NCBI GenBank assembly: GCA_947627365.1
Contig: CANQVT010000002.1
Coordinates: 1 to 64,000, forward strand
Direction: 5' to 3'
Length of the DNA stretch: 64,000 nt
Source of the DNA: an uncultured Lachnospiraceae bacterium
GTDB taxonomy: Bacteria > Bacillota > Clostridia > Lachnospirales > Lachnospiraceae
Shown here piece after piece: positions 26,210 through 42,054 of the stretch. A program made the position numbers and the translations under genes. The notes beneath the pieces are model-generated. The model was given only the letters and a program-made list of their open reading frames with translations, did no database searches and was not told where the DNA came from. Every line of letters begins with the position of its first letter. Position 1 is the first letter of the stretch.

Positions 26210-27274
26210 ATGGGCAAAAAAGACATTATTACAAAAGAATACATGCGGGATCGCAATACCTTCGCAGATGCATTCAACTATCTGCTCTACGGCGGCAGAT
26301 CCGTGATTGATCCGGGTGCGCTCCGTTCGCTCGACACAACGGTTACCGGCATTCCTTACGGCAAAGAAGGTACGGACACGCCGGTGCAGAAGTTCCGCGA
26401 CGAACTGAAGGGGCTCACCCTGATGGAAGACAGTTCGGCGATCTACCTACTGCTCGGCATCGAGAACCAGAGCGACGTAAATTACGCAATGCCTGTAAAG
26501 GATATGGTCTACGATGCCTTACAGTATGCCGCACAAGTTGAGCAGACCGCCAAGTCACACCGAGAAGCAGCAAAGGCTTCCGTCGCAAAGCCGGAACCCC
26601 AAGCGGGCATGTCCGGTGCAGCAGGCACACTCGGTAGTACGAATCGTCCGCCCAAAATCGGTGTTTCCAGCGGTGAATATCTGACTGGCTTCTATAAGGA
26701 CGACCACCTGATCCCCGTGATAACACTCGTCGTGTTCTTCTCGGCAGAAAAATGGGACGGCCCCAGATGCATCCATGACATGTTCTCCGTGACAGACCCT
26801 AAGCTTCTCTCGTTCATCCCAAACTACCGGATCAACCTGATCGCTCCCGGCGAGATGAGTGATACGGAGCTCGACAAGTTCACGACCAGCCTGCGCGAAG
26901 TTCTTCTGTTCATTAAATATTCCAAAGATAAAAACCGGCTTCGTACACTCGTCTCCGAGGATCAGCGTTTCCAGTCGGTAGAAAAAAACGCTGCGAAAGT
27001 AATAAACGCAGTAACACAATCAAACCTGATATTTTTCAATGAAGAAGAGGAGGCATCCGACGTGTGCAAAGCAATCGATGATATGAGAGCCGAAGCCCGT
27101 GCTGAGGGCAAGGCCGAAAGTATAGTGGAACTTCTGGGCTGTCTACCCGGCATTCTCCCGGAAACGATGCGCACATCCATCATGGCGGAGCGTGACACCG
27201 GCATACTTAGCAAGTATCTGCGGCTCGCCGCCGCATCATCTTCCGTGGAGGAGTTCTGCAGCCAGATCGCGTAA
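26210..27274 (+). CDS. Rpn family recombination-promoting nuclease/putative transposase
   Basis: A 354-residue protein of the PD-(D/E)XK Rpn/transposase_31-like type that is abundant in Lachnospiraceae. The N-terminal half shows LLLGIENQSDVNYAMPVKDMVYDALQY, the family's nuclease core (shown here in part), and a second block has VITLVVFFSAEKWDG. The C-terminal part holds AEARAEGKAES and an EEFCSQIA tail. AAGGTGGTG precedes the ATG. It lies at the 3' border of the phosphonate polysaccharide operon and next to a relic of a second copy, which fits a locus prone to rearrangement. Confidence 0.82.
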   Translation: MGKKDIITKEYMRDRNTFADAFNYLLYGGRSVIDPGALRSLDTTVTGIPYGKEGTDTPVQKFRDELKGLTLMEDSSAIYLLLGIENQSDVNYAMPVKDMVYDALQYAAQVEQTAKSHREAAKASVAKPEPQAGMSGAAGTLGSTNRPPKIGVSSGEYLTGFYKDDHLIPVITLVVFFSAEKWDGPRCIHDMFSVTDPKLLSFIPNYRINLIAPGEMSDTELDKFTTSLREVLLFIKYSKDKNRLRTLVSEDQRFQSVEKNAAKVINAVTQSNLIFFNEEEEASDVCKAIDDMRAEARAEGKAESIVELLGCLPGILPETMRTSIMAERDTGILSKYLRLAAASSSVEEFCSQIA

Positions 27275-27335: not shown

Positions 27336-28481
27336 TCATCTGCTCTGTGATGTATCCACATCAGGATTCTGGCAAAGCTTCAGCGCATCCATAAACGCCC
27401 GCTTATTTTCCTGTGGCGTAGTCGTCGGGCGGCCAAGATCTGCGCGCGATCCAATCGCACATTTCACTTCAATGAAGCTCAATTCGTTCCGTCTTTTCGC
27501 TTCCAGCAACGCCTTATCCAGCGATACAATATCCTCCACGCAAATCACGTTCGGATAGCCGCAGCCCTGTACAATCTTCACCAGATCAATTTCCTCGGCA
27601 ACGGTCGGCATACCTCCCACCGATTCATGCGCTCCGTTATTGATGACTATGTGAATCAGATTCCCGGGCTTGTTCGCCCCGATCACCGCCATCGCACCCA
27701 TGTGCATCAACACGGCTCCATCTCCGTCAATGACCCAGACTTTTTTCTCCGGCTTCTGCAGTGCAATGCCAAGGGCGATCGAAGAGCTGTGTCCCATCGA
27801 ACCCACCGTCAGAAAATCCGTCCCATGCGGCTGTCTGTCCGCCTCCCGTATCTCAAAAAGCTCCCGGCTCGCCTTGCCCGTAGTGGAGACAATCAAATCC
27901 TCCTCTGCCACCGCTGCAATATGCCGAATGACGTCCTCCCGCAGCATGATGTTCCCATTTTTATATTCCGCTTTCTTCTCATATTCCAACGCGCCCTTAC
28001 ATACAACAAGCGCAGTTTGCTTTCCCTCTGCCCACAGCGGTCGGAAAGAAGCCAGCGCCCGTTCCAGTTCCTCCGCCGTCGTCTCCCTCCTGATCACAAA
28101 AGAAGAAATATTCATATCCTCCAGAAGCTTCAACGTCACCTTCCCCTGAAAAATGTGCTGCGGCTCATCGTGTACTCCCGGTTCGCCTCGCCACCCAATA
28201 ATAAAAAGGCAAGGAATCCCGTACACCTCCTCATTCATCAGGGACGCCAACGGATTGATGATGTTTCCTTCTCCGGAATTCTGCAGATATACGACCGGGA
28301 CTTTGCCCGTAGCCAAATGATATCCGGCCGCCAGGGCCACGGCATTACCCTCGTTTGCCGCTATGATATGATGTCGCGCATCCGCCCCATATGTGTCCAT
28401 CAGGTAATCGCACAGCGGACGTAGCTGAGAATCCGGCACGCCGGTGAAAAAATCGAAATCTTTCAAAAAATCGAGTCGCAT
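27336..28481 (-). CDS. phosphonopyruvate decarboxylase
   Basis: Converts 3-phosphonopyruvate to phosphonoacetaldehyde with thiamine diphosphate and Mg2+, the step that pulls the unfavourable PEP mutase reaction forward. The 381-residue product (ATG 28481 after AAAGGG; a TTG six bases upstream is less likely) has FFTGVPDSQL and ANEGNAVALAAGYHLATG at the N-terminus, VHDEPQH in the middle and the ThDP motif GDGAVLMHMG...INN in the C-terminal half. These are the hallmarks of Ppd/AepY. It is the last gene of the polysaccharide operon, two bases after the reductase. Confidence 0.92.
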   Translation of the reverse strand: MRLDFLKDFDFFTGVPDSQLRPLCDYLMDTYGADARHHIIAANEGNAVALAAGYHLATGKVPVVYLQNSGEGNIINPLASLMNEEVYGIPCLFIIGWRGEPGVHDEPQHIFQGKVTLKLLEDMNISSFVIRRETTAEELERALASFRPLWAEGKQTALVVCKGALEYEKKAEYKNGNIMLREDVIRHIAAVAEEDLIVSTTGKASRELFEIREADRQPHGTDFLTVGSMGHSSSIALGIALQKPEKKVWVIDGDGAVLMHMGAMAVIGANKPGNLIHIVINNGAHESVGGMPTVAEEIDLVKIVQGCGYPNVICVEDIVSLDKALLEAKRRNELSFIEVKCAIGSRADLGRPTTTPQENKRAFMDALKLCQNPDVDTSQSR

Positions 28482-28483
28482 GG

Positions 28484-29605
28484 TCAATCCCTTTCCGCTT
28501 TCAAAATATGCCGGTACAAATTCATTATCGTATTCTCGTTCAGTTTTACCGGATTGTTGTCTAGCCTTGCCGGATCTACCGATTTTGTCAACGTCTCTAA
28601 TACTTTCTGTCGCTGATGTTCCGTCGGTTTGTCTATCCCGAATTCCCGCAGCAGCATGCGGAACCGCTCAATCGCCCTCTGGGAGTCCCCGCCGCCCATA
28701 GTGCGAGCGATATCAACCAGCACTCTCCGAACGTATTCCACGCCCCGCGAATCAATGCACTGCTCCAGATGTGTGCTCATATAATCCCACACCTCCGGCA
28801 GGCAGAGCGCCACCGCGTGTCCGTGAGGCAAACGGTATAAAGACGTCAGCTTATAGCTCATCGCATGAGGCGCAGTCGTCTGCGTGATATTGATCGCTCG
28901 CCCCGAATAGTTGGCTGCCTGCAATATTTTTTCAGCGGCCTCCCGGCTGTTCCTCTGAATGTAATCCTCCTGCCATTGCAGGATCATTTCTATCGCCTGT
29001 TTTGAATATTCGGTGCTCTCTTCTGTCGATTTCACGGACCACCACGATTCAATCGCCTGGCACAGTGCGTCCAATAACGTACATTTTTTCTGATACAACG
29101 GCAAAGTCCTCAACAAATCCGCGTCTAATATTACATAATCCGGAAGCATACTTCTCTGAGCAACCGAATACTTTCTGCCGTTCTTATAAACTACCGCAAA
29201 ATGCGTCGACTCACTCCCGGTTCCGGCTGTAGTGGGAACCGCGATCATCGGTATCCGGCTGTCTTGATATTCCTGCGCCAGATAATCCTTAGAAGAATCC
29301 AGTACAGAAAACTGTCTGACGCACTTCGCAACATCAATCGCGCTCCCTCCGCCGACTGCAACAATCGTATCACAACACTCCCGACGAAACAAGTCTACTC
29401 CTCTGCATACATCTTCATATACCGGATTCGATGTAAATCCACTAAAGCGCACGTATGACGTTCCGATATTCTCAAAAAAAACGCGAAGAGGTAACCGGTC
29501 AAACGGACTGCCGCAAATCAGAAAGAACTTCCCTGCGCCGAGCGTTCGAAAAATCTCCGCGAGTTGTCTCCGGCTTTGTTCCCCGGAAATAATTGTCTGT
29601 GGCAT
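28484..29605 (-). CDS. phosphonoacetaldehyde reductase (iron-type alcohol dehydrogenase)
   Basis: Predicted to reduce phosphonoacetaldehyde to 2-hydroxyethylphosphonate with NAD(P)H. The 373-residue protein is a group III, iron-type alcohol dehydrogenase: VAVGGGSAIDVAK binds the cofactor, TAGTGSE is conserved, and HAMSYKL and LPHGHAVAL contain metal-ligand histidines. In phosphonate gene clusters this family member (PhpC-like) sits beside PEP mutase and Ppd exactly as here. No transaminase for 2-aminoethylphosphonate is present, so the alcohol branch is favoured. Assignment rests on family plus context. Confidence 0.88.
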   Translation of the reverse strand: MPQTIISGEQSRRQLAEIFRTLGAGKFFLICGSPFDRLPLRVFFENIGTSYVRFSGFTSNPVYEDVCRGVDLFRRECCDTIVAVGGGSAIDVAKCVRQFSVLDSSKDYLAQEYQDSRIPMIAVPTTAGTGSESTHFAVVYKNGRKYSVAQRSMLPDYVILDADLLRTLPLYQKKCTLLDALCQAIESWWSVKSTEESTEYSKQAIEMILQWQEDYIQRNSREAAEKILQAANYSGRAINITQTTAPHAMSYKLTSLYRLPHGHAVALCLPEVWDYMSTHLEQCIDSRGVEYVRRVLVDIARTMGGGDSQRAIERFRMLLREFGIDKPTEHQRQKVLETLTKSVDPARLDNNPVKLNENTIMNLYRHILKAERD

Positions 29606-29606
29606 T

Positions 29607-31616
29607 TCACTCCTCCGGAATCAAGGTAATAATATCCTTAATCGGCATGCAAAGTTCCTCGCACTCTTTCCCTCTGTGATTTTCCAGAATGCTTTGCGCT
29701 GCCTTCTGCATGGCAGGGAAACCGCTGCGTGTGAGCTGATTGGCATAGATGATCACATTTACACCACACATTTTAAATTCCTCTTCTGTCACCGTATTAT
29801 AAGAAGTCGGCACCACCACCAGCGGCGTATGCGAATCCTGCTCCCGGAAAAGACTGACAAACTTGAAAATCTCCGACGGATCTGCCTTGCGGCTGTGAAT
29901 CATGATCGCGTCCGCTCCGGCTTCGGTATACGCAAACGCACGGGCCAGAGCATCCTCCATTCCCTGTTCCAAAATCAGACTCTCAATGCGCGCGCAGATC
30001 ATAAAATCTTTTGTTTTCTGAGCCTTCTTTCCCGCTGCAATTTTTGCACAAAAGCCTTCTATCGTATCCTGTGTCTGCTCCGCTTCCGTTCCAAATAGGG
30101 AATTCCTTTTCAGTCCGACCTTATCCTCAATGATTACCATGGAAACGCCCATACGCTCTAAGCTCCGCACCGTGTAGACAAAATGCTCTGCCAAACCTCC
30201 GGTATCTCCGTCAAAAATAATGGGCTTCGTAGTGACCTCCATGATGTCGTCAACCGTGCGGAAACGGGAAGTCATATCCACCAGCTCAATGTCCGGCTTC
30301 CCTTTCGCAGTCGAATCACACAGAGAACTCAGCCACATGGCGTCGAACTGGTATGTCTTCCCCTCCCTCAAAACAGTGGTCTTCTCCGCAATCAGCCCCG
30401 TAATTCCACTGTGCGCTTCGATGGCGTTGACGCAGCCTTTCATCTCGATCAGCTTTTTCAACCTGCCCCGCCGATAGTCCGGCATCGCAAGCTGCTGGCG
30501 GGATTGTCTTTCCAGCTCTCTGTATTTTTCATCCTTTGCATAGGGAAATTCCACAAGTCTTCCGCCATATTCTGCCAGCACCCGAATCACTTCGTCCCGT
30601 ATCGGCTGCTGAAATCCTGTACGCCAGTCGTCTCCATGAACGACAAAATCCGGCCGGAGTTCCCGCAGATTATCCGCATAGCTGAGCGTCTTCTGCTCCA
30701 CCACGCGATACACGCCAGAAATGTTTTTCATAACTGTCCTACGCTCTTCAAAAGATAACAGCGGAAAACGTTTATAGCTGGCAACCGCCTCGTCCGACAA
30801 AACGCCAATGATAAGCTTCCCTAACCGCTCCGCTTTTTTGATAATCGCAATATGTCCGCTGTGAATGACATCTGTAGAAAAGCACATATAGACAGTCCGA
30901 CTCTCAATCTCCCGGAGCCGGACCGAAACCTGCGTCAGATCCTCAGGCGTATCAATCTCCGCGCACAACGCCTCTTTCACGTCGAAAGGCGCAATATAAC
31001 ATCTGTCTGACACTTCATTAAACGCATTTTCCGCATAACAGTCTCGCCAACCGCTCTCACAAAATTCGCAGATCGCATCCAGCCAGATCTTCCAGTCGTC
31101 TTTGTTCAGCTTATAAAGAGGCTGCGCGGCAAGCGCCTGCTCGAAATATTCGATCCCAATCCTGCTGATCCGGCCATCCTGCACGACAGCTTTAAAATCC
31201 TTTTCAGGAAGCTCTACAACCGAACTGACCGTCATACAGCTTGTCCTGCTTCCTAAAACCCCATCAAGCACACCGAGCTCGAATACCAGATCCCCATGCA
31301 TTAGAATGATGTCTTCATCTTTAAAATACTCTCTGGCGCAATAGATTGAATATATGTAGTTTGTATCGGCATACAACGGATTTTTGACAAAAGCAATCTG
31401 CAGGGGCAGATCCAGAGAATCACAGTAGTTTGCCAGAACATCATCATAATATCCGGTCGTCATAACCACTTCTGAAATGCCTGCCTCGGCAAGCAGACGG
31501 AGCTGCCGGCTTACAATCGTCTCCCTCGCAGAAACCTCAGTCATACATTTAGGTTGTTCCGACGTCAGCACACCCATGCGATGGCCAAGGCCGGAGTTTA
31601 GGATCAATGCTTTCAT
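29607..31616 (-). CDS. three-domain nucleotidyltransferase / cytidylyltransferase-like / PEP mutase fusion
   Basis: A 669-residue fusion. Domain 1 (about 1-235) is a GT-A-fold NTP transferase of the LicC/PntC kind: LNSGLGHRMG (6-15), PK at 22-23, GD at 108-109. Domain 2 (about 240-365) is a HIGH-superfamily cytidylyltransferase-like unit with HSGH (252-255), but where related PEP mutases carry a GISST-type motif it has KDEKYREL (361-368). Domain 3 (about 385-660) is PEP mutase: SLCDSTAKGKPD, DGDTGG (469-474) and EDKVGLKRNS (497-506), the diagnostic PepM motif. It should make phosphonopyruvate and activate the phosphonate as a CMP derivative. It starts in a TAATG overlap with the flippase gene. 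Confidence 0.9.
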   Translation of the reverse strand: MKALILNSGLGHRMGVLTSEQPKCMTEVSARETIVSRQLRLLAEAGISEVVMTTGYYDDVLANYCDSLDLPLQIAFVKNPLYADTNYIYSIYCAREYFKDEDIILMHGDLVFELGVLDGVLGSRTSCMTVSSVVELPEKDFKAVVQDGRISRIGIEYFEQALAAQPLYKLNKDDWKIWLDAICEFCESGWRDCYAENAFNEVSDRCYIAPFDVKEALCAEIDTPEDLTQVSVRLREIESRTVYMCFSTDVIHSGHIAIIKKAERLGKLIIGVLSDEAVASYKRFPLLSFEERRTVMKNISGVYRVVEQKTLSYADNLRELRPDFVVHGDDWRTGFQQPIRDEVIRVLAEYGGRLVEFPYAKDEKYRELERQSRQQLAMPDYRRGRLKKLIEMKGCVNAIEAHSGITGLIAEKTTVLREGKTYQFDAMWLSSLCDSTAKGKPDIELVDMTSRFRTVDDIMEVTTKPIIFDGDTGGLAEHFVYTVRSLERMGVSMVIIEDKVGLKRNSLFGTEAEQTQDTIEGFCAKIAAGKKAQKTKDFMICARIESLILEQGMEDALARAFAYTEAGADAIMIHSRKADPSEIFKFVSLFREQDSHTPLVVVPTSYNTVTEEEFKMCGVNVIIYANQLTRSGFPAMQKAAQSILENHRGKECEELCMPIKDIITLIPEE

Positions 31617-33049
31617 TACAGCCCATCCTCCATCTTCAGTTTCTCTAACGTTGGCAACATCCTCGTCTTAGTATAAATCATTGCAATAGCCACAATAGCC
31701 AAAGCAACCGCATACCGTATAATTTTCATCTGATATACTAAATTGCTAAATAGCGATACGCTTATTACCACTAAAGATAATCCCCCAAGATACTTCATAT
31801 CATAAACAGGTTCTGCTACTACCCTCTTCATTGCAAAATAATCTATTATTGCCTGTAATAAATAGCAAACAAACGTTGTATACCCTGCAGCAATATATCC
31901 ATATTTCCGTATGAATATCAAATTCAATACAATATTCAAAAGACATGCGCTTACACTGGCATACATCACATATTTGGGGCGCTTATAATAATATACAATA
32001 TTAGCATAAATAAAATATTGAACCTGAAAGAAAACACCCCCTACAACCGATGGTATCACATAAACCGCCTTCTGATAGTCCTTCGTCGCCATTATGGTCA
32101 CTACCTCCGGCGCCAGCATAATTACAAGTATACACAATATAGCTATTACAGTCAGAATTGGCATAGTCACCATAGAGATAGACTTATAGTCTTTTGCCTT
32201 GCATCTTTCATACGTAAAAGGAATAAGTGACGCGTTGATAGAAGACCATATAATAGACGCGATCGACGCTACCGAATATGCCACACTGTAATGAGCGGTC
32301 GCTGTATCATTTACAATTCTGGATATCATAAGCTTATCTGAGCTTCCAAGTAAATTTGTGGACAAATAGTGTGGAATCAATGGCAAATTAAAAAGAAACG
32401 CTGCTTTCCAATACTTTACCTCAACCTTGCCTTTGGCCCTGATCGCCAGATAAATATAAAACCCGGCATATAACACAATCAAAGGTATTTCTGCTCCAAA
32501 TAGTCTCGCATATAGTCGATTATCCTGAAAATAGTAAATGCAGACAATCGCAATCGTTGGTGAAAGAATTGCAGATGTAACTGTCCAGAAAACCATTGCT
32601 TTGTATTTCAATTCATATCGCTGTCTGCTTGTCCAAAAATTATAGGCAGGCTGAAACAAATATACAACTCCCATCAAAAAAAGCAAAGGTAAATCCAGAC
32701 CAAACCATGTTCCAAAAAAACAATAGATAAACAATACAACACAAAATGTAAGTATAGTGATCAGATTAGAAAATACAAGCATCGAATAGGAATATTCGTT
32801 TCTTTGATTTGCATAATCCATCATACCATTATTAAACACACCATAAGAAAGGCAGAACATTGCAATAATGCCCAAAAGATTCATCCATGTTAAGAATACT
32901 GAAGCCTGGCCATATTCCTCCGCTGTTAATAACCTTGTGTAAAACGGTGTCGTAAGATAGGAAATACCTTTCGAGACTACCGTCGCAAGAAATAATGACG
33001 TTGACGCCTTTACGCTGCGTGGAATCTTATTTAGTATATTTCTTTTCAT
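31616..33049 (-). CDS. Wzx-type polysaccharide flippase
   Basis: A 477-residue membrane protein with 12-14 predicted helices, of the PST/MOP flippase group: IPRSVKASTSLFLATVVSKG at the start and alternating hydrophobic segments to the end. It should move the undecaprenyl-linked repeat unit across the membrane for polymerisation. The gene is distinctly AT-rich compared with the phosphonate genes that follow. The ribosome site is weak. Its stop overlaps the PEP mutase fusion start, so the two are translationally coupled. Confidence 0.9.
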   Translation of the reverse strand: MKRNILNKIPRSVKASTSLFLATVVSKGISYLTTPFYTRLLTAEEYGQASVFLTWMNLLGIIAMFCLSYGVFNNGMMDYANQRNEYSYSMLVFSNLITILTFCVVLFIYCFFGTWFGLDLPLLFLMGVVYLFQPAYNFWTSRQRYELKYKAMVFWTVTSAILSPTIAIVCIYYFQDNRLYARLFGAEIPLIVLYAGFYIYLAIRAKGKVEVKYWKAAFLFNLPLIPHYLSTNLLGSSDKLMISRIVNDTATAHYSVAYSVASIASIIWSSINASLIPFTYERCKAKDYKSISMVTMPILTVIAILCILVIMLAPEVVTIMATKDYQKAVYVIPSVVGGVFFQVQYFIYANIVYYYKRPKYVMYASVSACLLNIVLNLIFIRKYGYIAAGYTTFVCYLLQAIIDYFAMKRVVAEPVYDMKYLGGLSLVVISVSLFSNLVYQMKIIRYAVALAIVAIAMIYTKTRMLPTLEKLKMEDGL

Positions 33050-33068
33050 AAGTGTCTATAGCCTCAAG

Positions 33069-34097
33069 TTAAAATGGCATGCAACTATGTTGCGGTTTGC
33101 ATTCAAATCTCTCAAATGGATAAATATACTCTGCCAGCTCTTTCTCAATCTGTTGAATATCGCCCGATAGTTCCGGGTGCTTTAAAAAAAGCTGTGTATT
33201 ATTAATTGACACTGCAGGATCAAAATATTTCTTTCTTTCCCATCCATCTGTTGTAAATTCTAAAAAATCCATAAGTTTTCTCGCAGTTGCTTCATAATCA
33301 TAAATCATGTTTTCATATCTTATACAACAAATATCAGTGCTATCTGGTATATTATTCCGGACAAGCTTATGGTACTTAATAAAATTCTCTACATTATCCG
33401 TAGGAATAAAATTCCCTTTACTCTTTAGGTAACATTTTGCAAGTACATAAATATCTCTGGGATCTCTGTCCACCAGTACAGCTTTGGGAGAATCAAAAAA
33501 TTTCATACTTCGTTGTGGTTCGTAGACGTCAAATGGCTGATTCAATAGAATAGTTTTGCTCAAATCAAAACCTAACATTTCTATAATATCTCGCAAATAG
33601 TGTTTTACTTTATCGTAAAACTCTTTCGGATCAACAGATAAATACATGATACTACGCTTAGAATAGGGCCATTTTTTATCTGTTAATTTTTCATATAAAC
33701 GAACAATTCTCAGTTTTACCCCAATTAAACGTTGATAAAACCACCGTTCACAATACTTTTCCAACGGAACATAGCCGCGCCAGGTCACCTGTGATAGCTC
33801 ATCAATGAATTCCAGCGAGCGGGTTCTAAAGCAATTCCCGGTCAGTTTTCGATAATAGCTTCTTGGACTATCCAGACCGCAGATAAGCTTCTTGTAATCT
33901 TTCAATGCTGCATTAGACGACAAATATCTTGTCTTTCTAATTAATAATTGATATTCAAGGTCCTGAATTCCATGCGGCAGATATAAAAAATCAAACTCCG
34001 GAATATTCAAATTGCAACTGCATGTGTTCCATTCACACAAAAAGTCCAACACAGCTCCACTTCCACTATAGCCATAACCGCAAACGCCGATTACCAT
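33069..34097 (-). CDS. sulfotransferase-like protein
   Basis: A 342-residue P-loop protein. GYGYSGSGAVLDFL near the N-terminus fits the 5'-phosphosulfate loop, and VLVDRDPRDIYV (about 230-241) fits the 3'-phosphate binding RDPRD motif of PAPS-dependent sulfotransferases. No signal peptide is seen, so it would act in the cytoplasm on a nucleotide- or lipid-linked sugar. PAPS synthesis genes are not in the window. It could instead transfer another group using the same fold; in this operon the phosphonate is a candidate. AAGGGAAAACG precedes the ATG. Confidence 0.7.
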   Translation of the reverse strand: MVIGVCGYGYSGSGAVLDFLCEWNTCSCNLNIPEFDFLYLPHGIQDLEYQLLIRKTRYLSSNAALKDYKKLICGLDSPRSYYRKLTGNCFRTRSLEFIDELSQVTWRGYVPLEKYCERWFYQRLIGVKLRIVRLYEKLTDKKWPYSKRSIMYLSVDPKEFYDKVKHYLRDIIEMLGFDLSKTILLNQPFDVYEPQRSMKFFDSPKAVLVDRDPRDIYVLAKCYLKSKGNFIPTDNVENFIKYHKLVRNNIPDSTDICCIRYENMIYDYEATARKLMDFLEFTTDGWERKKYFDPAVSINNTQLFLKHPELSGDIQQIEKELAEYIYPFERFECKPQHSCMPF

Positions 34098-34126
34098 CGT
34101 TTTCCCTTCTCTACATAATAAAATGT

Positions 34127-35320
34127 TTAATAAAAAACAAACTTGATTTTTGGTTCTCTGCCCGGTATATTATCAAGCTGCTTTTCTATCTCTTCAATAT
34201 GATATGCTATAGTAATAATACCAAAGAGCATAGTCATTGTTGTAATCGCTTCAATTTGTCCAACAATAAAAAAGCATAATAGTGTATCTAAAATGATAAA
34301 TTTATATTTTCTATTATTAGCGTTAGCCAATGGACCATTTAATAATATGAGAATACGCAAAAAACTTATCATCCCCACAATTCCGGATTGATATAAAATT
34401 TGCAAAAAATGATTATGGCAATGCGAGAACCCATTTAATCGCAAGCGAGTAATATCCGTATCTACATATCCCCATCCCAACAATGGGCGTTGAATAAACA
34501 TGTGAATGGCAATGTCCCATCTGCTGGTTCGGTTTGAAAAAGTCAAACTTTTCCCCAGAATATCAACTATAAGCCATTTAAACAAAATTTGAATACGTGC
34601 AACAACAATGGCAAAGAAAAATGCTATATGTACGCCTAATATTGTCCATACGTTCAACATGAGGCTGCTGTTTGTTACCTCAGAAAAAATCCACAAAAAA
34701 ATCCAAACCGTCACCGCAACAACCGATGCTCCCGAAAACGTAATGTATATAGAAGCAGAATAAATAATGATCATACACAACTTTGCTAAAAAAGATAGTT
34801 GCCTGTATTCTGCATATATTATCCCCACGCATAGCGCCGGAAAAATGAAATTGTAATGAGTATTGTCGTATCCTAGAAGCCAGTTATTTGTAAAAGATGT
34901 TACATACATTCCCTGAGGAAAAAAGCAAACAGCAATTAGATTAGAAATTACCACTATACCCAAAATATAATGAAGAAACGTCACTAGCATTCTGCCATCA
35001 TATTCTATCAACAACTCTATTAGCATACAAAAAGCAATCATCTTTCCAAATGTAACAAAATAATGCCAGTAATCGCCTCGATTAATTAATGTACTTAACA
35101 AAGAAACTCCCATATATGCTATTATTGCAAGCATAATTTTTGACCATTTACCATTCAAAACGTATATCATTAAGGTTATCATGACTGATATCATAATCCA
35201 TGCATCTATAATCCTATCAAGTTCTGGAAATAAATGCAGAATTCCAGGTGGGCATAAATGCGGTAAAATCAATAGCATAAAAATACCCTTTCTCAAGAAA
35301 ATTGAAGTTCTCTCAACCAT
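34127..35320 (-). CDS. Wzy-like polysaccharide polymerase / O-antigen ligase family protein
   Basis: An integral membrane protein of about 397 residues with 10-12 helices. The large loop near the C-terminus contains LGWGYVDTD and GFSHCHNHFLQILYQSG, the HNxFLQ pattern of the Wzy_C/O-antigen ligase family. It should join repeat units on the outer face of the membrane. A TTG six bases upstream of ATG 35320 has better ribosome-site spacing (GGGAG) and may be used instead. Strongly AT-rich, like its neighbours. Confidence 0.85.
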   Translation of the reverse strand: MVERTSIFLRKGIFMLLILPHLCPPGILHLFPELDRIIDAWIMISVMITLMIYVLNGKWSKIMLAIIAYMGVSLLSTLINRGDYWHYFVTFGKMIAFCMLIELLIEYDGRMLVTFLHYILGIVVISNLIAVCFFPQGMYVTSFTNNWLLGYDNTHYNFIFPALCVGIIYAEYRQLSFLAKLCMIIIYSASIYITFSGASVVAVTVWIFLWIFSEVTNSSLMLNVWTILGVHIAFFFAIVVARIQILFKWLIVDILGKSLTFSNRTSRWDIAIHMFIQRPLLGWGYVDTDITRLRLNGFSHCHNHFLQILYQSGIVGMISFLRILILLNGPLANANNRKYKFIILDTLLCFFIVGQIEAITTMTMLFGIITIAYHIEEIEKQLDNIPGREPKIKFVFY

Positions 35321-35392
35321 ATACAATCACAACTCCCAGTTAAATTTTATAATCATCGCTTCGAAAAAATAAAATTATATCTTCTAAATATT

Positions 35393-36520
35393 TTATCCAT
35401 ATAATTTTTCCAATGCTTGTGCTGTTAATCTATTTTCATATCCTGCTTCTTGAACTTTGTGCCAAGCTTCTTCTCGCTTCACGCGATAATTCATATTTCT
35501 ATATCTAAGAATATGGTCAACCCATACTCCTGGATTATTTAAAGGAAGAAATTCCACCTTACCAGATATATCTGCCTCCTTGGGCACCTGATTGGAGACA
35601 ATACAAGGCAACCCTGATGCCTGTGCCTCAAGGTTGACAATCCCAAACCCTTCCCAAAAGCTTGGCAAAACAAATACATCCATTGCACAGTAGAATTTAT
35701 TTGTTTCTACGGTTACTCCTGCAAAAACAACTTTTTTCTCCAATCCTAAGTCTTTTACAAGCGCATGTACCTCCTTTTCCAGATCGCCTTCTCCCAATAA
35801 CAACAATTTTGCCGTTTTGCACTTTTGTATTATTTCATAGAATACTTTTATTAAAAATCGATGATTTTTCTGTTCTGCAAAGCGTCCTACGTGGCCAATG
35901 ACAAAATCTTCGGCAGAAAAATCAAGCACTTCACGACATTTATAGCGCGCATCTATGCTAAATTTAAACCTATAGGCATCTATTCCATATTTCATTATTA
36001 TTGCTTTTTCTGCAAATTTTTTACCAAACAATGAAATTGCTGCCGGATAAGAACATGCTATCAAATCTGTCGCATTTGCTAAGAGCATTTTACGAAAACC
36101 TGCCCGCACAATATCTTCTCTCCGCCCTGTATTATGCGAATGTGAAATGCGCTTCGGGATTCCAAAAAGACGGCCTATTAGCACCGAATAGGCTTGTACA
36201 GAAATAGGATCTGTATTTACGTGAATAACATCATAATGCTTTTGTCTGCATAAATATATAAGATGTTTTAAAAATCTAATATGAAACAATATCTTTTCCA
36301 AGATAAATGTATTTTTTTCAAATTTTTTCATTCCGAGCTCAATAAAATTAATTCCCATCTCTTTCATTTGTTCTGCGCCTATATGATTTACAATCTTGCC
36401 CGGACATATATAATCCAAAGAATACTTTGATACATCTATAATTCCTAACGCATTAGTTAAGAAATTCTCTGTACCGCCTGTATTGAAATTTATTGTGCCT
36501 ACCAAAAGAATCCTTTTCAT
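35393..36520 (-). CDS. GT4 family glycosyltransferase
   Basis: A 375-residue GT-B fold enzyme. The N-terminal domain has NTGGTENFL, and the C-terminal domain has HVGRFAEQKNH, LLGEGDLEKEV and the EX7E element in PSFWEGFGIVNLEAQASG. This is the pattern of EpsF-like retaining transferases that use nucleotide sugars. The acceptor is the growing lipid-linked repeat unit; the sugar is unknown. It lies within the AT-rich middle of the operon. Confidence 0.9.
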   Translation of the reverse strand: MKRILLVGTINFNTGGTENFLTNALGIIDVSKYSLDYICPGKIVNHIGAEQMKEMGINFIELGMKKFEKNTFILEKILFHIRFLKHLIYLCRQKHYDVIHVNTDPISVQAYSVLIGRLFGIPKRISHSHNTGRREDIVRAGFRKMLLANATDLIACSYPAAISLFGKKFAEKAIIMKYGIDAYRFKFSIDARYKCREVLDFSAEDFVIGHVGRFAEQKNHRFLIKVFYEIIQKCKTAKLLLLGEGDLEKEVHALVKDLGLEKKVVFAGVTVETNKFYCAMDVFVLPSFWEGFGIVNLEAQASGLPCIVSNQVPKEADISGKVEFLPLNNPGVWVDHILRYRNMNYRVKREEAWHKVQEAGYENRLTAQALEKLYG

Positions 36521-36552
36521 TCCCTTTGCACACGTCCTTATATAAATATTTA

Positions 36553-37578
36553 TTATTTTTCAAATAAAGATTTCTTTGGCAAAATATGATTAAATGCATT
36601 AATTACTATGTTTTTATTTTTTAAAAAATCCTTTTGTGTCATTTCCCCATCATTGAGCACAACTATTTTACCCCTTTGCTTTTTTATATAAGCTACGCAA
36701 TCCTGAATACTATCCCTGTCCTTTTCGATAAAAAATGTCTTTCCAATATTAGCTTTCCGCGGGACAAAATTTCCACTTGCCAGTTGCCAGTTTCTCATAA
36801 CCCACTGATTATAATCTAATTTTGTCCGAAAACGATTATTACACGTCTCTTGAAGCAAATCCGGCTCCATTTCCCAAATAATGTCAAAAGTACTTTTTAA
36901 AAAGGAACTTGGCAAATGATACTGCAGAATACCAGGAAATCTGGGACATGGCAATAAATACAGAGTCCTCAGCAAATCTTTCCCATATTTCAAATTAAAC
37001 CATTTGCCTGGGTTCTTTCGGATAACCTGATGCATGTTAAAGTATTTATTTGTTATCTGGATTGCCTGTTGCGGGTAATAATTGAATCCAGCGTTTATCT
37101 CAGGGCAATGCACACTTAAGACAGCAGAATCACAAGGAAGACCATTTTTAAAGAAATCTGTCTCCTTAGTCTCATTGATCAAAAACATATCATCATTAAA
37201 ATAGACAAACTGTTCCGATAGTCCTTTAATCTTATGCAAGTTCAATTCTAATGGCTGACTATTAAACGTAGGTAAATAGCAATCAGGCATATAATCTGTA
37301 TGCTTCACAATCACCAGCTTGGGATGGTCTGTGTTAAGCCATGGAGGAAGATGTCCCCATGTGATAAAAAAAATTTTGTGTACCCATGGAGCAAACTTTT
37401 CTACACCTCGGAACCAATACTGAAGATTATCCCAATCGCGATATCTCTGTGGTCTGGTATCCGTCTGCTGCCCCGGTATATATTTATTTTTTTCCTTCTG
37501 CCATTTAGGATCATTCCCGTCTACCCATAAAATCACAAAATCAATTGGCAGATTTTCCAATACATTTTTGCTAGTCAT
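36553..37578 (-). CDS. Stealth family sugar-phosphate transferase
   Basis: A 341-residue protein with the Stealth conserved regions in order: CR1 IDFVILWVDGNDPKW (about 13-27), CR2 around RDWDNLQYWFRGVEKFAPWV, CR3 QFVYFNDDMFL (about 127-137) and a C-terminal CR4-like part. Known members (capsule polymerases such as SacB) transfer hexose-1-phosphate and create phosphodiester bonds in polysaccharides. Here it predicts phosphate linkages, or possibly transfer of a phosphonate, in the polymer. The ribosome site is weak and the gene is AT-rich. Confidence 0.9.
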   Translation of the reverse strand: MTSKNVLENLPIDFVILWVDGNDPKWQKEKNKYIPGQQTDTRPQRYRDWDNLQYWFRGVEKFAPWVHKIFFITWGHLPPWLNTDHPKLVIVKHTDYMPDCYLPTFNSQPLELNLHKIKGLSEQFVYFNDDMFLINETKETDFFKNGLPCDSAVLSVHCPEINAGFNYYPQQAIQITNKYFNMHQVIRKNPGKWFNLKYGKDLLRTLYLLPCPRFPGILQYHLPSSFLKSTFDIIWEMEPDLLQETCNNRFRTKLDYNQWVMRNWQLASGNFVPRKANIGKTFFIEKDRDSIQDCVAYIKKQRGKIVVLNDGEMTQKDFLKNKNIVINAFNHILPKKSLFEK

Positions 37579-37648
37579 ATTTATTAGATTTCATGATGTT
37601 TTATCGAAAACATCTACACTCCATTCCCTCAGTGTATTCTCTCAATTT

Positions 37649-38710
37649 CTATCTATTATCTTTCAATCGATGAAATATCGCCGGGTTATGTTTCCTTATC
37701 TGATAAATCAATTTCCCCATCACATACGCTCCTGAAGGCCAGTTCCAGCGTATTGGGAGAACAAATATCCTCATCTTTACGGAACGGCATCTGGCATACT
37801 GCACCGCTTCCCTGACATCCGGATGTCCGATCAATGCTTTGATTTTTCTATACTTTTGCCTGGCAGTAAGTTGCTTTTTTGCATGGAAAAGGTTCTCGAT
37901 ACAACCTGCAATCCGCTCGACAAATTCCCGGCTCGTGTATTCCCTGGCCTTCTCGTCCCACACCCCAAGTTCCTTAAAATGATACTGAAATTCTTGATAT
38001 TCTTTATATCTGATATCAAAAAAATTTTCCCTATACTTTTCTGTTGTAGATCCGACACGTTCCCGCACATAATCGTACAGGCAACATTCGGTAAAAGCTA
38101 CCGACTGTGTTTTGGATAAGAATAGCCGATTAAAAACACGATCTTCCGTATAGACATGACCATCCCGAAACCGTATTCCATATTTACGGATTGTTCCCAT
38201 ACGATAAAGCTTATGCCAGACATAAGAGAGCATTTCTGCATCCCATATATCAATATAATCATTTTTTATGTCTTCTAAGCTATAGTAGACAGACGCACGC
38301 CAAGTCTTATTTTCTAGGTAATCCTGTCCTTTCTCAGAGCCTTCGACCTTTATTCGATAGCCGCAGACCGCCATATCTGTATGTTTTTCTTCTATTACGG
38401 AAACCAACGTTTCAATCATTTCCGGATGATACTCGTCGTCTACATCCAAAAATATAATATACGCACCTTTCGCTGCATCAAGTCCTGCGTTTCTTGCCCT
38501 TGCGGTCCCCTCATTTTCCTGATTAATCAGTCTAAACCGCTCATCCTCTGTTACAACTTTTTTGCATACGTTCAAACTTTGATCTGTCGATCCGTCATTT
38601 ACAAAGAATACTTCTATATTCTGATAGGTTTGGCTGCAAAGGTATCTCGCGCAGTTTTCAATGTATTTTTCTCCGTTATAAACGGGAATAACAACACTAA
38701 CCAGTTCCAT
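37649..38710 (-). CDS. GT2 family glycosyltransferase
   Basis: A 353-residue GT-A enzyme: ELVSVVIPVYNGEKYI at the start, NDGSTDQS, and the metal-binding DVDD in FLDVDDEYHPEM (about 90-93). The C-terminal 150 residues are helical. It should add a sugar to the lipid-linked intermediate. GTG codons 6 and 12 bases upstream of ATG 38710 are possible starts, the nearer of them with better spacing from AAGGA. Confidence 0.9.
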   Translation of the reverse strand: MELVSVVIPVYNGEKYIENCARYLCSQTYQNIEVFFVNDGSTDQSLNVCKKVVTEDERFRLINQENEGTARARNAGLDAAKGAYIIFLDVDDEYHPEMIETLVSVIEEKHTDMAVCGYRIKVEGSEKGQDYLENKTWRASVYYSLEDIKNDYIDIWDAEMLSYVWHKLYRMGTIRKYGIRFRDGHVYTEDRVFNRLFLSKTQSVAFTECCLYDYVRERVGSTTEKYRENFFDIRYKEYQEFQYHFKELGVWDEKAREYTSREFVERIAGCIENLFHAKKQLTARQKYRKIKALIGHPDVREAVQYARCRSVKMRIFVLPIRWNWPSGAYVMGKLIYQIRKHNPAIFHRLKDNR

Positions 38711-38762
38711 TTTCACCCACACACTTTTCCTTTTAGATCATATGTGTATTGAAAGAATTAAT

Positions 38763-39398
38763 TTAACAAGCACCATCTCCACTGATTACACTGAAAAAAG
38801 TTTTACACAATATTTTTATATCATTCCATATGCTCTCTTCTTTAATATACTTCAGATCCAATTCTACCCACTGCTGAAAAGGTATTTTATTTCTTCCGCT
38901 GCACTGCCAATAACATGTCAGTCCTGGTTTGACCAGCATTCTCTGCCTCTGATACGCGTTCAACCTCGCTGTTTCATACGTCGGCAATGGCCTTGGTCCG
39001 ACAAAACTCATCTCTCCTCTCAGGATATTGACGAGCTGCGGCAATTCGTCCAGACTCATTCTTCTTAAAAATCGACCGACACGTGTAATACGCGGATCAT
39101 TCTTTATTTTAAAGGCCGGTCCGTCTAATTCATTCCGGAACTCTAACCCCTTCCGAAACTCTGGGGCATCCTGAAACATTGTGCGGAATTTCCATATTAT
39201 AAACACTTTTCCATTTAATCCGTTTCTCTCTTGGAAGAAAAGAACCGGACCCGGATTGTCGATAAATATTGCAACAGCTATAAGCAAATGGGCAGGAACA
39301 AATATAATCAGGCCTATAATACTGAAAAAGATGTCAAACGCCCTCTTGCAAAAGCGATGTCCTGTTTTTCGATTGGGTATGACGATTTTCTCGTCCAT
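38763..39398 (-). CDS. polyprenyl-phosphate sugar-1-phosphate transferase (priming enzyme)
   Basis: Starts the repeat unit by moving a sugar-1-phosphate onto undecaprenyl phosphate. The 211-residue protein has one N-terminal membrane segment (about 18-45) and the catalytic domain motifs WKFRTM, DELPQL and GPRPLP of the small (PglC-type) bacterial sugar transferase family. ATG 39398 follows GGGGTGAG; an in-frame GTG 12 bases upstream is less likely. It sits between cpsD and the GT2 gene, the usual order in Gram-positive Wzy-dependent clusters. Confidence 0.93.
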
Positions 39399-39418
39399 TG
39401 ATATTCTCACCCCATATT

Positions 39419-40138
39419 TCAGCGAACGGTTTTTTCATTTTCATTTCCATAATAAGAGCCATAGTACTCCCCGTAGCGCTTCCCATAATACTTCCCATAG
39501 TATCGACTCGACGACAGCTCCACCTCGTTCAGCACGCACCCAAGGATCTTTGCTCCGGCCGTCTCGATCTGTCCTTTGATCCTCTGTGCCAAACGGTAGC
39601 TGACCTCCCCATCCCGCAACACCAGCACCACACCGTCGCAGTTTCTCGCCACCACCGCGGCATCGATCACGCTTCCAACCGGAGGCGTGTCAATGATGAC
39701 CATGTCAAAGACATCCCTTGCAGATTTCACCAAAGTGTTGAATCGCTCGCTCCCCAACAGTTCGCTTGGGTTTGGAGGTTGTTGCCCTGCAAACATGATA
39801 TAGAGATCCTGCACGGTTGTCCGGTATATGATATCGTCCATGGAGTTTCGCCCGATCAGGTAATGTGTCAGTCCGTACTCTGGTTTTCCGTATCTGATAT
39901 GCTTCTGCATGACAGATTTTCGCAGGTCAGCGTCGATCAGGAGTGTCTTCTTTCCATTTTCAGCAAAAGCGCACGCCAGTTCAAAGCTGATGGTCGATTT
40001 CCCGTCTCCGGGCAGCGCGCTCGTCACGCAGATCACCTTCACATCCTCGCCGGAGAATTCTATATTGGATCTTAGTGTTTTGAATGCCTCCTGTACCTGG
40101 AAGCTGTTTTGGTTTTCCCGAATCTCTATCGTTTCCAT
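39419..40138 (-). CDS. CpsD/CapB-type tyrosine autokinase
   Basis: A 239-residue BY-kinase. Walker A GDGKST (about 43-48), Walker A' LLIDADLRKS and Walker B VIIDTPPVGS are intact. The C-terminus ends in a Tyr-rich tail with eight or more tyrosines in YYGK/RYGE/YYGS steps, the autophosphorylation cluster that controls chain length through CpsC. GAGGAG precedes the start. The matching phosphotyrosine phosphatase (CpsB/Wzb) is not in the window. Confidence 0.94.
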   Translation of the reverse strand: METIEIRENQNSFQVQEAFKTLRSNIEFSGEDVKVICVTSALPGDGKSTISFELACAFAENGKKTLLIDADLRKSVMQKHIRYGKPEYGLTHYLIGRNSMDDIIYRTTVQDLYIMFAGQQPPNPSELLGSERFNTLVKSARDVFDMVIIDTPPVGSVIDAAVVARNCDGVVLVLRDGEVSYRLAQRIKGQIETAGAKILGCVLNEVELSSSRYYGKYYGKRYGEYYGSYYGNENEKTVR

Positions 40139-40159
40139 GCGTTCAGATCTCCTCTGTTC

Positions 40160-40912
40160 TCACTTTCTATTCTTCCTGATTTCAGCTCCGGATTTCTTTT
40201 TTCCCCGTGAGGATTTCCCTGAAGCAGATGTCTCCATCCTCGGAATCATCGCCAGGGTCGAGAGATTCAGATATTTCTTGATGTCGTCCGCACTTTTTAT
40301 CGTATCGTCCATCAGAAATCTTACGATCAGTATTATAAACACGACCATAAATCCGATCAGAACCGAGACGACCGCCCAGATCATTTTGGACGGTGAAGAC
40401 GGCTCCTCCGGCAGGTTTGCCTCCTCCGCCACATTAACAGCTTCCACATCAGTCACGGCGCGGATATGCTTCGCCGCGGTCTCCCGAATGCTTGCTGCGA
40501 TCTTCTGCGCCATCTCCGGGGAAGGATCCTCTACAGTGATAGATAGGATACGTGTGTCTGTCATGTTTTCCACAGTAACTCGTTCATACAGATCCTTGTA
40601 TTCATCCTCAAGTCCACACTCGCGAATCACTGCTTCCAGGACGTCCCGGCTCACAATCAGCGCCTCATAGTCCTTCGTCAGCTGGCTCGACATCTGCATA
40701 TCACTGTACGTGAGCGTGCCTGTCGTCTGCTTGTTGAGGATGATGATTTTCGTCGTGGATTCATACTTCGGGGTGATCACAAACAGGCAGATGCCCATGC
40801 CGATTGTACCGGTCAGCAGCATCGCCGCCAGAAACAGGTACCAGCGCCGCGCCAAGTAAAAGAATAGCTCTACCACATTGATTTCAATGACGTCTCTGTT
40901 GTTATTTCGCAT
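40160..40912 (-). CDS. Wzz/CpsC chain-length regulator
   Basis: A 250-residue membrane protein with two helices (about 18-40 and 188-212) flanking an extracellular domain, the topology of polysaccharide co-polymerases of the Gram-positive CpsC type. It activates the neighbouring CpsD kinase through its C-terminal cytoplasmic tail, which here is short and Lys/Arg-rich. It lies 22 bases before cpsD on the same strand. Confidence 0.92.
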   Translation of the reverse strand: MRNNNRDVIEINVVELFFYLARRWYLFLAAMLLTGTIGMGICLFVITPKYESTTKIIILNKQTTGTLTYSDMQMSSQLTKDYEALIVSRDVLEAVIRECGLEDEYKDLYERVTVENMTDTRILSITVEDPSPEMAQKIAASIRETAAKHIRAVTDVEAVNVAEEANLPEEPSSPSKMIWAVVSVLIGFMVVFIILIVRFLMDDTIKSADDIKKYLNLSTLAMIPRMETSASGKSSRGKKKSGAEIRKNRK

Positions 40913-41036
40913 ACATGAAATATCTCCTTGCCTTTTCCTGATAGCTTTCTATATAGTCCCGAAACCTGACGGCTCTATAACGAGATACCTTCCATTGAGA
41001 TTCCAGAGACGGATCTGCGCTTTTTCCATGCAACAG

Positions 41037-41981
41037 CTATATTGTTATACTCTGTCTGAAATACTGTATCGTACTCTCCAGGCCTTCTTTCAAAGCGATT
41101 GTTGGCTTCCAGCCCAATTCCCTCTCCGCCAGACTGATATCCGGCTTTCTCTGGGTCGGATCGTCCTCCGGAAGCGGCATATAAATCAGCTTCGATTTTG
41201 AGCCGGTCGTCTGCAGCACCAACTCCGCAAGCTCAAGCATCGTAAATTCCTTGGGATTACCGAGGTTCACCGGCCCGGTGAAACCATCCCGGCTGTTCAT
41301 CATCCGGATCAGGCCGTCCACCAGATCGTCCACATAGCAAAAACTTCTGGTCTGCTCTCCGCTACCATAGATCGTGATATCCTCGCCTCTGAGCGCCTGC
41401 ACGATGAAATTAGACACGACGCGTCCATCGTCCGGACGCATCCGCGGACCGTATGTATTGAAGATGCGCACGACCTTGATATCCAGACCGTGCTGCCTGT
41501 GATAATCAAAGAATAATGCCTCCGCCATGCGCTTGCCCTCGTCATAGCAGGAGCGCACGCCGTGCGGATTCACATTCCCCCAGTAGTCCTCTGTCTGAGG
41601 GTGAATCGCTGGATCGCCGTACACCTCGCTCGTGCTCGCCTGAAGAATCCGCGCATGGCAGCGTTTCGCAAGGCCGAGCATATATAACGCGCCGATCACA
41701 CTGGTCTTGGCTGTCTTGATCGGATCGTATTGATAATGAATCGGGCTTGCCGGGCAGGCCAGATTATAGATCTGGTCACACTCCACATACACCGGCTCCA
41801 GCACGTCATGCCGGACAAATTCAAAATACGGATGATTCATCAGATGGCGAATATTGTCCTTGCGCCCGGTAAACAGATTGTCCAGGCAGATGACTTCGTT
41901 CCCCTCCTCCAGCAGTTTTTCACATAAATGCGAACCGATGAAGCCGGCTCCTCCGGTAACCAGAATTCTATTATGTTCCAT
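41037..41981 (-). CDS. UDP-glucuronate decarboxylase (UDP-xylose synthase)
   Basis: Makes UDP-xylose from UDP-glucuronate with bound NAD+. The 314-residue SDR-fold enzyme has GGAGFIGS (10-17), the UXS-specific [10 protein letters not shown] segment, catalytic Ser in ASTSEVYGD and YDEGK for the YxxxK pair. It is the first gene of the polysaccharide operon, directly after the promoter with direct repeats, and AGGGGATA precedes the ATG. It predicts xylose or a xylose-derived sugar in the polymer; UDP-glucuronate must come from genes elsewhere. Confidence 0.95.
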
Positions 41982-42026: not shown

Positions 42027-42054
42027 ATTTTATAAAATAGAAATGTTCTGTCAA
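42027..42054 (-). promoter_or_regulatory. promoter of the phosphonate polysaccharide operon
   Basis: On the minus strand: a perfect -35 TTGACA (42049-42054), a 16-bp spacer and a -10 TAAAAT (42027-42032), about 45 bases before the UXS start. It should drive the whole 41981-27336 operon; no other clear promoter is seen within the operon. Confidence 0.7.

Follow-up and report, generated by a model that had tools for sequence, protein, structure and literature searches.

The subject of this work is a run of thirteen genes on the minus strand of a 64,000-nucleotide stretch of DNA from an uncultured Lachnospiraceae bacterium (positions 1 to 64,000 of contig CANQVT010000002.1, assembly GCA_947627365.1; hereafter the window), which occupies positions 41981 to 27336, begins with a UDP-xylose synthase (UXS) and ends with a phosphonopyruvate decarboxylase (Ppd). 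The last three genes of this run probably constitute a self-contained cassette supplying a donor of 2-hydroxyethylphosphonate (HEP) for decoration of the capsule encoded by the preceding genes. All genes that an earlier note, made from the letters alone, had named in this region were recovered by profile matches with the families expected:

41037..41981, minus strand: UDP-glucuronate decarboxylase (UXS), 432 bits to UDP-glucuronic acid decarboxylase 1 structures
40160..40912, minus strand: CpsC/Wzz chain-length protein, family match
39419..40138, minus strand: CpsD tyrosine autokinase, TIGR01007, 232 bits, over the cut-off
38763..39410, minus strand: priming sugar-phosphate transferase (Bac_transf), 225 bits
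37649..38722, minus strand: GT2 glycosyltransferase, family match
36553..37578, minus strand: probable Stealth protein (CR1, CR2, CR3), candidate HEP transferase, unproven
35393..36520, minus strand: GT4 glycosyltransferase, family match
34127..35326, minus strand: Wzy polymerase / O-antigen ligase family, family match
33069..34097, minus strand: sulfotransferase-like protein, weak Pfam match and conserved motifs
31616..33049, minus strand: Wzx flippase, family match
29607..31616, minus strand: triple fusion N-M-PepM of 669 amino acids (aa), domain matches
30912..31616, minus strand: N domain of the fusion (residues 1-235), LicC/PntC-like nucleotidyltransferase, proposed CTP:HEP cytidylyltransferase
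30483..30908, minus strand: M domain of the fusion (residues 237-378), Fom1-type cytidylyltransferase with HSGH and GDDW
29613..30461, minus strand: phosphoenolpyruvate (PEP) mutase domain of the fusion (residues 386-668), EDKVGLKRNS
28484..29605, minus strand: Fe/Zn-type alcohol dehydrogenase (ADH), proposed phosphonoacetaldehyde reductase, nearest solved sequence BkTauF (6jko)
27336..28487, minus strand: Ppd, TIGR03297

The set required for a Wzx/Wzy-dependent capsule (priming transferase, glycosyltransferases, Wzy, Wzx and CpsC/CpsD) is present. For UXS the runner-up among structures, UDP-glucose 4-epimerase, scored 162 bits, and a dehydrogenase of the UDPG_MGDP_dh family is encoded elsewhere in the host genome (2.82 Mb in 104 contigs, 84.5% complete, one PEP mutase). 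Intergenic gaps upstream of the cassette measure, in order, 124, 21, 8, 40, 70, 32, 66, 29 and 19 bp, while Wzx shares one base with the fusion gene (−1 bp) and the junctions inside the cassette are +1 and −4 bp. Capsule genes thus continue directly into phosphonate genes, as had been claimed, and the arrangement is kept in a near-copy, locus L102, found in a metagenome-assembled genome (MAG) labelled Lapin-007 (the label presumably refers to rabbit). There the priming transferase and everything after it up to the decarboxylase, ten genes in all, follow in the same order with 96.0–99.7% protein identity, and the contig ends directly upstream of them. Two details of the earlier description had to be corrected: the phosphonate genes are ordered as fusion, ADH and decarboxylase rather than PEP mutase, decarboxylase and reductase, and what was called PEP mutase does contain this domain but is a three-domain fusion. 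A putative sigma-70-like promoter, recognized by consensus match alone, lies about 45 bp upstream of the first operon gene:

42027..42054, minus strand: TTGACA-16-TAAAAT, 11/12

A single transcript is called into question, though not strongly, by a promoter-like match within Wzx (31921-31892, 10/12) and a terminator-like one within the fusion gene (31412-31395), because such matches are numerous across the region: 61 promoter-like sites versus 38.7 in shuffles (sd 6.8) and 16 terminator-like sites versus 12.4 (sd 3.9). Of the neighbouring genes, a LytTR response regulator is encoded on the same strand immediately upstream of the operon (42110-42877), and a convergent Transposase_31 (YhgA-like) gene (26210-27274) ends just past the 3′ end of the cassette. 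At another locus, L038, a PDDEXK_2 transposase-type gene stands immediately upstream of the fusion.

All three domains of the fusion carry the sequence marks of their families. The PEP mutase domain exceeds the TIGR02320 equivalog cut-off (400.6 vs 319.55 bits) and has the EDKxxxxxNS motif. The M domain contains both elements of the Fom1-type motif (HxGH and HGDDW, here HSGH and GDDW), and its best solved match is 5x3d, which we take to be the Fom1 cytidylyltransferase (E 7.7e-42; 55% identity over 121 residues). The N domain possesses the LicC-like nucleotidyltransferase signature (GxG..R, PK, D109, E220/D222) and gave a profile match of 2.5e-9 to 6pd1. At the position of Tde-PntC Glu104, assigned from the printed alignment to 6pd1, it has His107 and no carboxylate, and so lacks the mark of PntC specific to 2-aminoethylphosphonate (AEP). 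The whole protein is 66–76% identical to 11 relatives and 75% identical to Segatella copri WP_006848642.1. According to Rice 2019 (PMC6697681), 42 of 1485 PEP mutases are triple fusions PF12804-PF01467-PF13714, the Fom1 cytidylyltransferase produces CMP-HEP and PntC produces CMP-AEP. Since N and M are fused to PEP mutase, the step of CMP activation, which the earlier note had postulated, appears to sit in the PEP mutase polypeptide itself, and the signatures of the activating domains follow ADH rather than AEP transaminase, as described below.

The two remaining enzymes agree with a route to HEP. Ppd exceeds the TIGR03297 equivalog cut-off (468.6 vs 312.5 bits). The nearest solved sequence to ADH is the sulfoacetaldehyde reductase BkTauF (6jko), which acts on the sulfur counterpart of phosphonoacetaldehyde. 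The metal ligands of ADH (Asp, Gln, His and His) match the aligned places of BkTauF (ligands as given in PMC6616044), as expected for a metal-dependent ADH acting on an acidic aldehyde. Together with the partner counts given below, the domain matches back the previously proposed conversion of PEP via phosphonopyruvate and phosphonoacetaldehyde to HEP.

To distinguish HEP from AEP, partner genes were compared in about 120 loci (designated L with a number). These partners, and likewise LicD, Stealth and the sulfotransferase, were counted over all six frames, because ORF (open reading frame) calling chose antisense frames at some loci. Of the 80 best N-type loci 72 had ADH, 69 had Ppd and 5 had AEP transaminase, while the 28 loci having only the two-domain M-PEP-mutase form contained ADH once and AEP transaminase 17 times, the sole ADH (L058) being accompanied by a transaminase. 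All 13 triple-fusion loci of the same family are devoid of AEP transaminase. The residues behave likewise. Rice 2019 (PMC6697681) places Tde-PntC Glu104 at the amine of AEP. All 95 N domains (91 distinct sequences) have His at the aligned position. Sixteen LicC-like proteins that are more distant, every one from a two-domain locus, have Glu there in 14 cases and Ser in 2. As for M, 75 of 78 proteins from loci with ADH only retain the second Asp of GDDW, and 15 of 16 from loci with transaminase only have Asn instead. Taken together, the three correlations (partner genes, N residue and M residue) support the HEP branch.

Several observations weigh against this reading. Eight of the 80 N-type loci have no ADH; four of them are cut by contig ends (L119, L124, L173, L180), and four are uncut exceptions within the stretch covered (L106, L107, L162, L181). 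At L162 (8724-9875) the triple fusion is followed by a DUF3880/glycosyltransferase gene in the usual place of ADH and then by Ppd, and LicD is immediately upstream. The five N-type loci with transaminase belong here too. GDNW occurs in the ADH-only loci L046, L049 and L141 (in L141 the protein is a separate M-PEP-mutase), GDDW occurs in the transaminase locus L073, and 22 of 116 M rows come from loci with both partners or with neither. The ADH of the window falls below the NCBIfam TIGR03405 cut-off for phosphonate-linked Fe-ADH (144.8 vs 423.7 bits); it may act likewise even if it stands outside this family. Finally, position 107 and the Asp of GDDW may mark clades and not substrates, so the residue correlations support but do not prove substrate specificity.

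The way in which the domains are fused elsewhere suggests which of the two cytidylyltransferases is at work. In L165 N, M and ADH form one protein of 761 aa and PEP mutase is separate; in L141 and L178 an N-M protein adjoins ADH and a separate M-PEP-mutase; in L076 N is joined straight to ADH (594 aa). Thus in these four loci N, alone or with M, goes with ADH and not with PEP mutase. Two further variants are an N-M protein without ADH or PEP mutase (L107) and a 945-aa frame combining an ADH-like part with LicD (L049). Genome G123, at 99% completeness, encodes N-ADH, Ppd and a PEP mutase standing alone, with no match to M genome-wide. The HxGH motif of M is kept in 81 of 84 triple-fusion rows; it is broken in L115 (NSAH), L180 (LGAH) and S. 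copri (NSAH), where N is intact, and in L168 it reads HSAH. Signature residues of N (G9, G11, R13, K23, D109, E220, D222) are invariant in 95 of 95 rows. Because M is absent from G123, its HxGH decays and the N signature does not vary, we propose that N would be the essential CMP-HEP synthase and M a second copy which can be lost.

Some related arrangements were registered along the way. The PEP mutase locus L077 (6476-8329, genome G129) encodes an N-type nucleotidyltransferase joined to a Rhomboid-family membrane domain, and no ADH was found there. A LicC-like domain with an N-terminal MarR-type winged helix is encoded in L165 (12287-13195) and L178 (8916-9878), and in both these loci AEP-type and HEP-type phosphonate genes adjoin each other.

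The cassette is far from confined to the window. Among 397 genomes surveyed in the family of the window, 71 matched the fusion at E <= 1e-20; the full triple fusion was found end to end in 13 genomes at 14 places, the window included, and the two-domain form in about 30 genomes. Scanning 84,980 species genomes with the N-domain alignment gave 572 pattern matches, of which 548 are relatives, and the same scan of viral contigs gave 153 pattern matches and no relatives. The N-type loci named here are the best 80 of these 548 and are hence biased to close relatives, with near-copies among them (L155-L157, L134/L137, L119/L120). Judging by record titles, these best 80 comprise 63 Bacillota, 15 Bacteroidota, 1 Melainabacteria and 1 without placement; faeces or an organ of the gut are mentioned in 25 titles, the "Lapin" set accounts for 16, and isolate-like titles are Ruminococcus sp. 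FC2018, Butyrivibrio sp. AE3009 and bacterium D16-50. In S. copri DSM 18205, a strain of a human gut species, the fusion (L239:14001-16010) lies on a 167-kb record filed as a plasmid and is followed by aepY, an annotated phosphonoacetaldehyde reductase, a CDP-glycerol-transferase-like gene (WP_006848639.1), Wzy and a flippase. This record is the only one of 392 matching plasmid records which covers at least 80% of the fusion length. A tree of 82 rows, the product of a quick search with no bootstrap, places the window and L102 in a set of 26 rows (SH-aLRT support 98) made up of 13 Bacteroidota, 12 Bacillota and the window, with Lachnospiraceae rows scattered over the tree; MAG bins can contain foreign contigs. 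This pattern suggests that the cassette moved between lineages by transfer, and in the relatives it adjoins polysaccharide genes of widely differing composition. Flagellin and MptE-like families were each represented by 2 of the 73 proteins neighbouring the triple fusions of L037-L045, and the glycan of flagellin might be a target in some genomes.

Candidates for the enzyme that would load HEP onto the polymer were compared by their presence at cassette loci. Of 93 cassette loci 23 were dropped as shorter than 14 kb or duplicated (L112, L156), leaving 70. Controls came from one family and comprised 40 priming-transferase sites (the best in each of 30 genomes that gave no PEP mutase match, plus a second site in 10 of them); the 32 that reached 14 kb entered the count. 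Presence was scored within a stretch of 14–20 kb, which does not by itself prove a shared operon. Of the 70 cassette loci 36 contain LicD, which belongs to the family of CDP-choline-type transferases, and of the 32 control capsule loci 1 does (Fisher p 4.9e-7). Without dropping loci the figures are 44 of 93 against 1 of 40, and for the family of the window alone 5 of 11 against 1 of 32 (p 0.0025); the LicD profile was seeded from cassette loci and may under-call LicD in controls. CDP-glycerol-transferase-type proteins occur in 10 of the 28 two-domain loci, one representative being a fusion of YidC with Glyphos_transf. Probably, the usual partner of the cassette is LicD or an enzyme of CDP-glycerol type. 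Several facts limit this conclusion: LicD is present in 8 of 24 two-domain loci and so is not HEP-specific, 34 of the 70 cassette loci have none, and a profile search detected none among the operon proteins of the window or in its near-copy L102. When 121 of the 166 neighbour proteins of 41 LicD-free loci were sorted by Pfam, no single substitute transferase emerged among the 25 commonest of 197 families (Glyphos_transf 4, NTP_transf_5 3). A candidate phosphonate transferase is the 645-aa YidC (60KD_IMP)-Glyphos_transf protein of L052 (8885-10822), which recurs in a cluster of 11 AEP-type loci, one representative of which was scanned.

For the window itself the candidates that remain are Stealth, a LicD acting in trans and some other family. 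Two LicD genes lie elsewhere in the host genome, on contigs C77 and C14. The first adjoins IspD-like and CDP-glycerol-transferase genes, therefore has its own donor chemistry, and was rejected. The second belongs to another capsule-like locus, and none of the genome's PF12804 or PF01467 matches is on C14; its action in trans is possible but unsupported. That Stealth moves HEP from CMP-HEP, attacking the outer phosphorus as Stealth enzymes do on UDP-sugars, is a tentative option which we consider possible but rather doubtful. Besides the priming transferase it is the only phosphotransferase-type protein of the operon (CR1 and CR2 over the cut-off with 50.3 and 149.4 bits, CR3 at the cut-off with 24.2, CR4 not reported), and L102 retains the same arrangement with no LicD seen. 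However, ordinary Stealth proteins transfer sugar-1-phosphates, Stealth was registered in just 3 of 70 cassette loci (L102 among them) versus 0 of 32 controls, which is not significant, and in the full set of 93 three of the four Stealth-bearing loci contain LicD as well. Of 46 genomes with a Stealth homolog (that of the window included) only G332, besides the window, has it adjacent to PEP mutase. A special Stealth clade of cassette loci was also considered and discarded, the nearest relatives in G261 (24 kb from PEP mutase) and G087 (other contig) being not adjacent. The expectation that Stealth or the sulfotransferase-like protein attaches the phosphonate is therefore not borne out by these counts, in which the latter reaches only 2 of 70 loci (one of them L102) versus 1 of 32 controls, again without significance.

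Even if the polymer does carry a phosphonate, it might be something other than HEP, i.e. HEP modified further or AEP made with a transaminase encoded elsewhere. The five transaminase-containing N-type loci and the four ADH-free ones with room for ADH leave space for such a product, and mixed pathways do exist, since in L165, L141 and L178 the N-M part with ADH stands beside a separate AEP-type PEP mutase fusion. We nevertheless consider it unlikely: the operon of the window has no transaminase, nor do the 13 triple-fusion loci of its family, and the N and M signatures differ between ADH loci and transaminase loci.

It is improbable that the product is a small diffusible antibiotic-like phosphonate or a phosphonolipid merely sharing the capsule transcript. 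Fosfomycin synthesis starts alike, with Fom1, Ppd and an alcohol dehydrogenase as its early steps via HEP and CMP-HEP. In S. copri genes for an adenylation-domain protein, an acyl carrier protein, an AAC(3)-family acetyltransferase and alanine racemase follow 8–12 kb downstream of the fusion. The Fom1 step is covered by PMC6697681, and PMC10035134 reads a PPM/PPD/ADH cluster of the marsupial gut archaeon Methanocorpusculum as an antibiotic pathway. On the other side, the cassette stands beside varied polysaccharide genes in relatives and, in S. copri, next to genes for Wzy, a flippase and glycosyltransferases. In the window Wzx shares a base with the fusion gene, and within each neighbour tally, cut at the 25 commonest families, no enzyme of late phosphonate-antibiotic synthesis was conspicuous.

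The sulfotransferase-like protein itself scored 22.4 bits in Pfam against a cut-off of 27, and its best solved-structure match had E 0.089, which leaves the identity given in the earlier note weak by profile. It is strengthened by a P-loop-like start (GSS/GSG) and a (D)RD-RD / RDPRD motif conserved in 14 aligned rows (13 genes), which we take to resemble motifs of sulfotransferases using 3′-phosphoadenosine-5′-phosphosulfate (PAPS). Contig C75 of the host encodes CysNC (adenosine-5′-phosphosulfate kinase) next to a PAPS_reduct-family protein, probably CysD. Probably, therefore, we deal with a PAPS-dependent sulfotransferase of the polymer, and on this reading the polymer may carry sulfate as well as phosphonate. 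That it attaches the phosphonate is highly improbable: its gene does immediately precede Wzx, and both sulfotransferase-bearing cassette loci among the 93 (L102, L176) show no LicD, but the protein is as rare at cassette loci as counted above, none of its homologs in 10 other genomes of the family is linked to PEP mutase (only G029 has the cassette, on another contig), and ordinary sulfation fits the motifs and the CysNC/CysD-like proteins better. At L032 (9661-12479, genome G022) the triple fusion is immediately preceded by a PAPS_reduct-family gene (probably CysD) together with a CysN-CysC fusion, which hints that sulfation may be combined with phosphonylation there.

Gene order, fusions and the correlations of motifs and partners are directly visible in the DNA, and from them one can assume the following course of events. 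The PEP mutase domain would convert PEP to phosphonopyruvate, and decarboxylation by Ppd would draw this reaction forward to phosphonoacetaldehyde, which ADH would reduce to HEP. The N domain, as a His-type relative of PntC, would transfer CMP from CTP onto HEP with formation of CMP-HEP, and M would serve as a second HEP cytidylyltransferase, dispensable and decaying in some lineages. A phosphotransferase would then load HEP from CMP-HEP onto the sugar units for which the upstream Wzx/Wzy genes are responsible; a LicD or a CDP-glycerol-type protein probably does so in many relatives, and here Stealth or LicD in trans are candidates. We are fairly confident of the pathway up to CMP-HEP, while delivery of HEP to the polysaccharide of this operon is, in our opinion, likely; substrate, product and attachment are in each case deduced from the genes.

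In a broader sense, the joined domains and the exchanged residues allow a prediction as to which of the two cytidylyltransferases would use HEP, and LicD and CDP-glycerol-type proteins can be named as candidate transferases. Cultured S. copri DSM 18205 has the cassette beside Wzy and a flippase, so the prediction is testable now. HEP esters resist hydrolysis; they could change recognition of the surface by host lectins, antibodies, phages and glycan-degrading neighbours, and HEP could form a pool of phosphorus in the gut. The chances seem evenly balanced that HEP is common on surface glycans of mammalian gut bacteria, being spread by a mobile Bacillota–Bacteroidota cassette that enters unrelated capsule loci, with the His107 class of PntC as the working activator, the Fom1-like domain as a fading second copy and several unrelated phosphotransferases recruited for CMP-HEP.

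Among known systems, the start of fosfomycin synthesis (Fom1/Fom2/ADH) resembles the cassette in the fusion of PEP mutase with a cytidylyltransferase, in Ppd, in the alcohol dehydrogenase and in the identity of M to the Fom1 cytidylyltransferase; unlike it, the window has an additional LicC-like domain and a capsule-operon setting, with no later fosfomycin enzyme in the operon. PntC (Tde1415, Ari1348) shares with N the fold family, the nucleotidyltransferase signature and the tie to PEP mutase and surface glycans, and the PntC-transaminase fusion of T. denticola parallels the N-ADH fusions; N of the cassette differs in having His for the amine-contacting Glu104 and ADH instead of transaminase as partner. 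Phosphonoglycans of Glycomyces and Stackebrandtia were reportedly described by Yu in 2014 as carrying HEP. We know of no triple fusion in these organisms or in marine HEP systems. HEP esters of marine polysaccharide are documented in PMC5649143 and PMC9381506, so that both groups are alike in bearing HEP on polysaccharide and unlike in belonging to Actinobacteria and to sea water. As to the gut, the claim that no example was described there stands in part: a full-text literature search, with subscription papers mostly beyond its reach, found no description of an HEP glycan (or of the cassette) of gut bacteria, yet the cassette, with its 548 relatives, is common there. Bacteroides fragilis is a gut anaerobe. 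Its capsule bears AEP (PMC6697681), which is likewise a phosphonate on a capsule, made there via transaminase and here, as we infer, as HEP via ADH. A gut metagenome survey lists "phosphonoglycans" (BGC0000806) among cluster types shared by mammal guts; the assignment was made by database similarity, and the accessible part of the survey gives neither genes nor HEP (PMC11448209). Rice 2019 (PMC6697681) calls the steps leading to phosphonyl modification of cell surfaces unknown, and its triple fusions have the same architecture as that of the window, with no substrate or partner genes given in the accessible part of the paper. Triple fusions as such are thus already in print; what is added here is their tie to an ADH/Ppd cassette in capsule operons.

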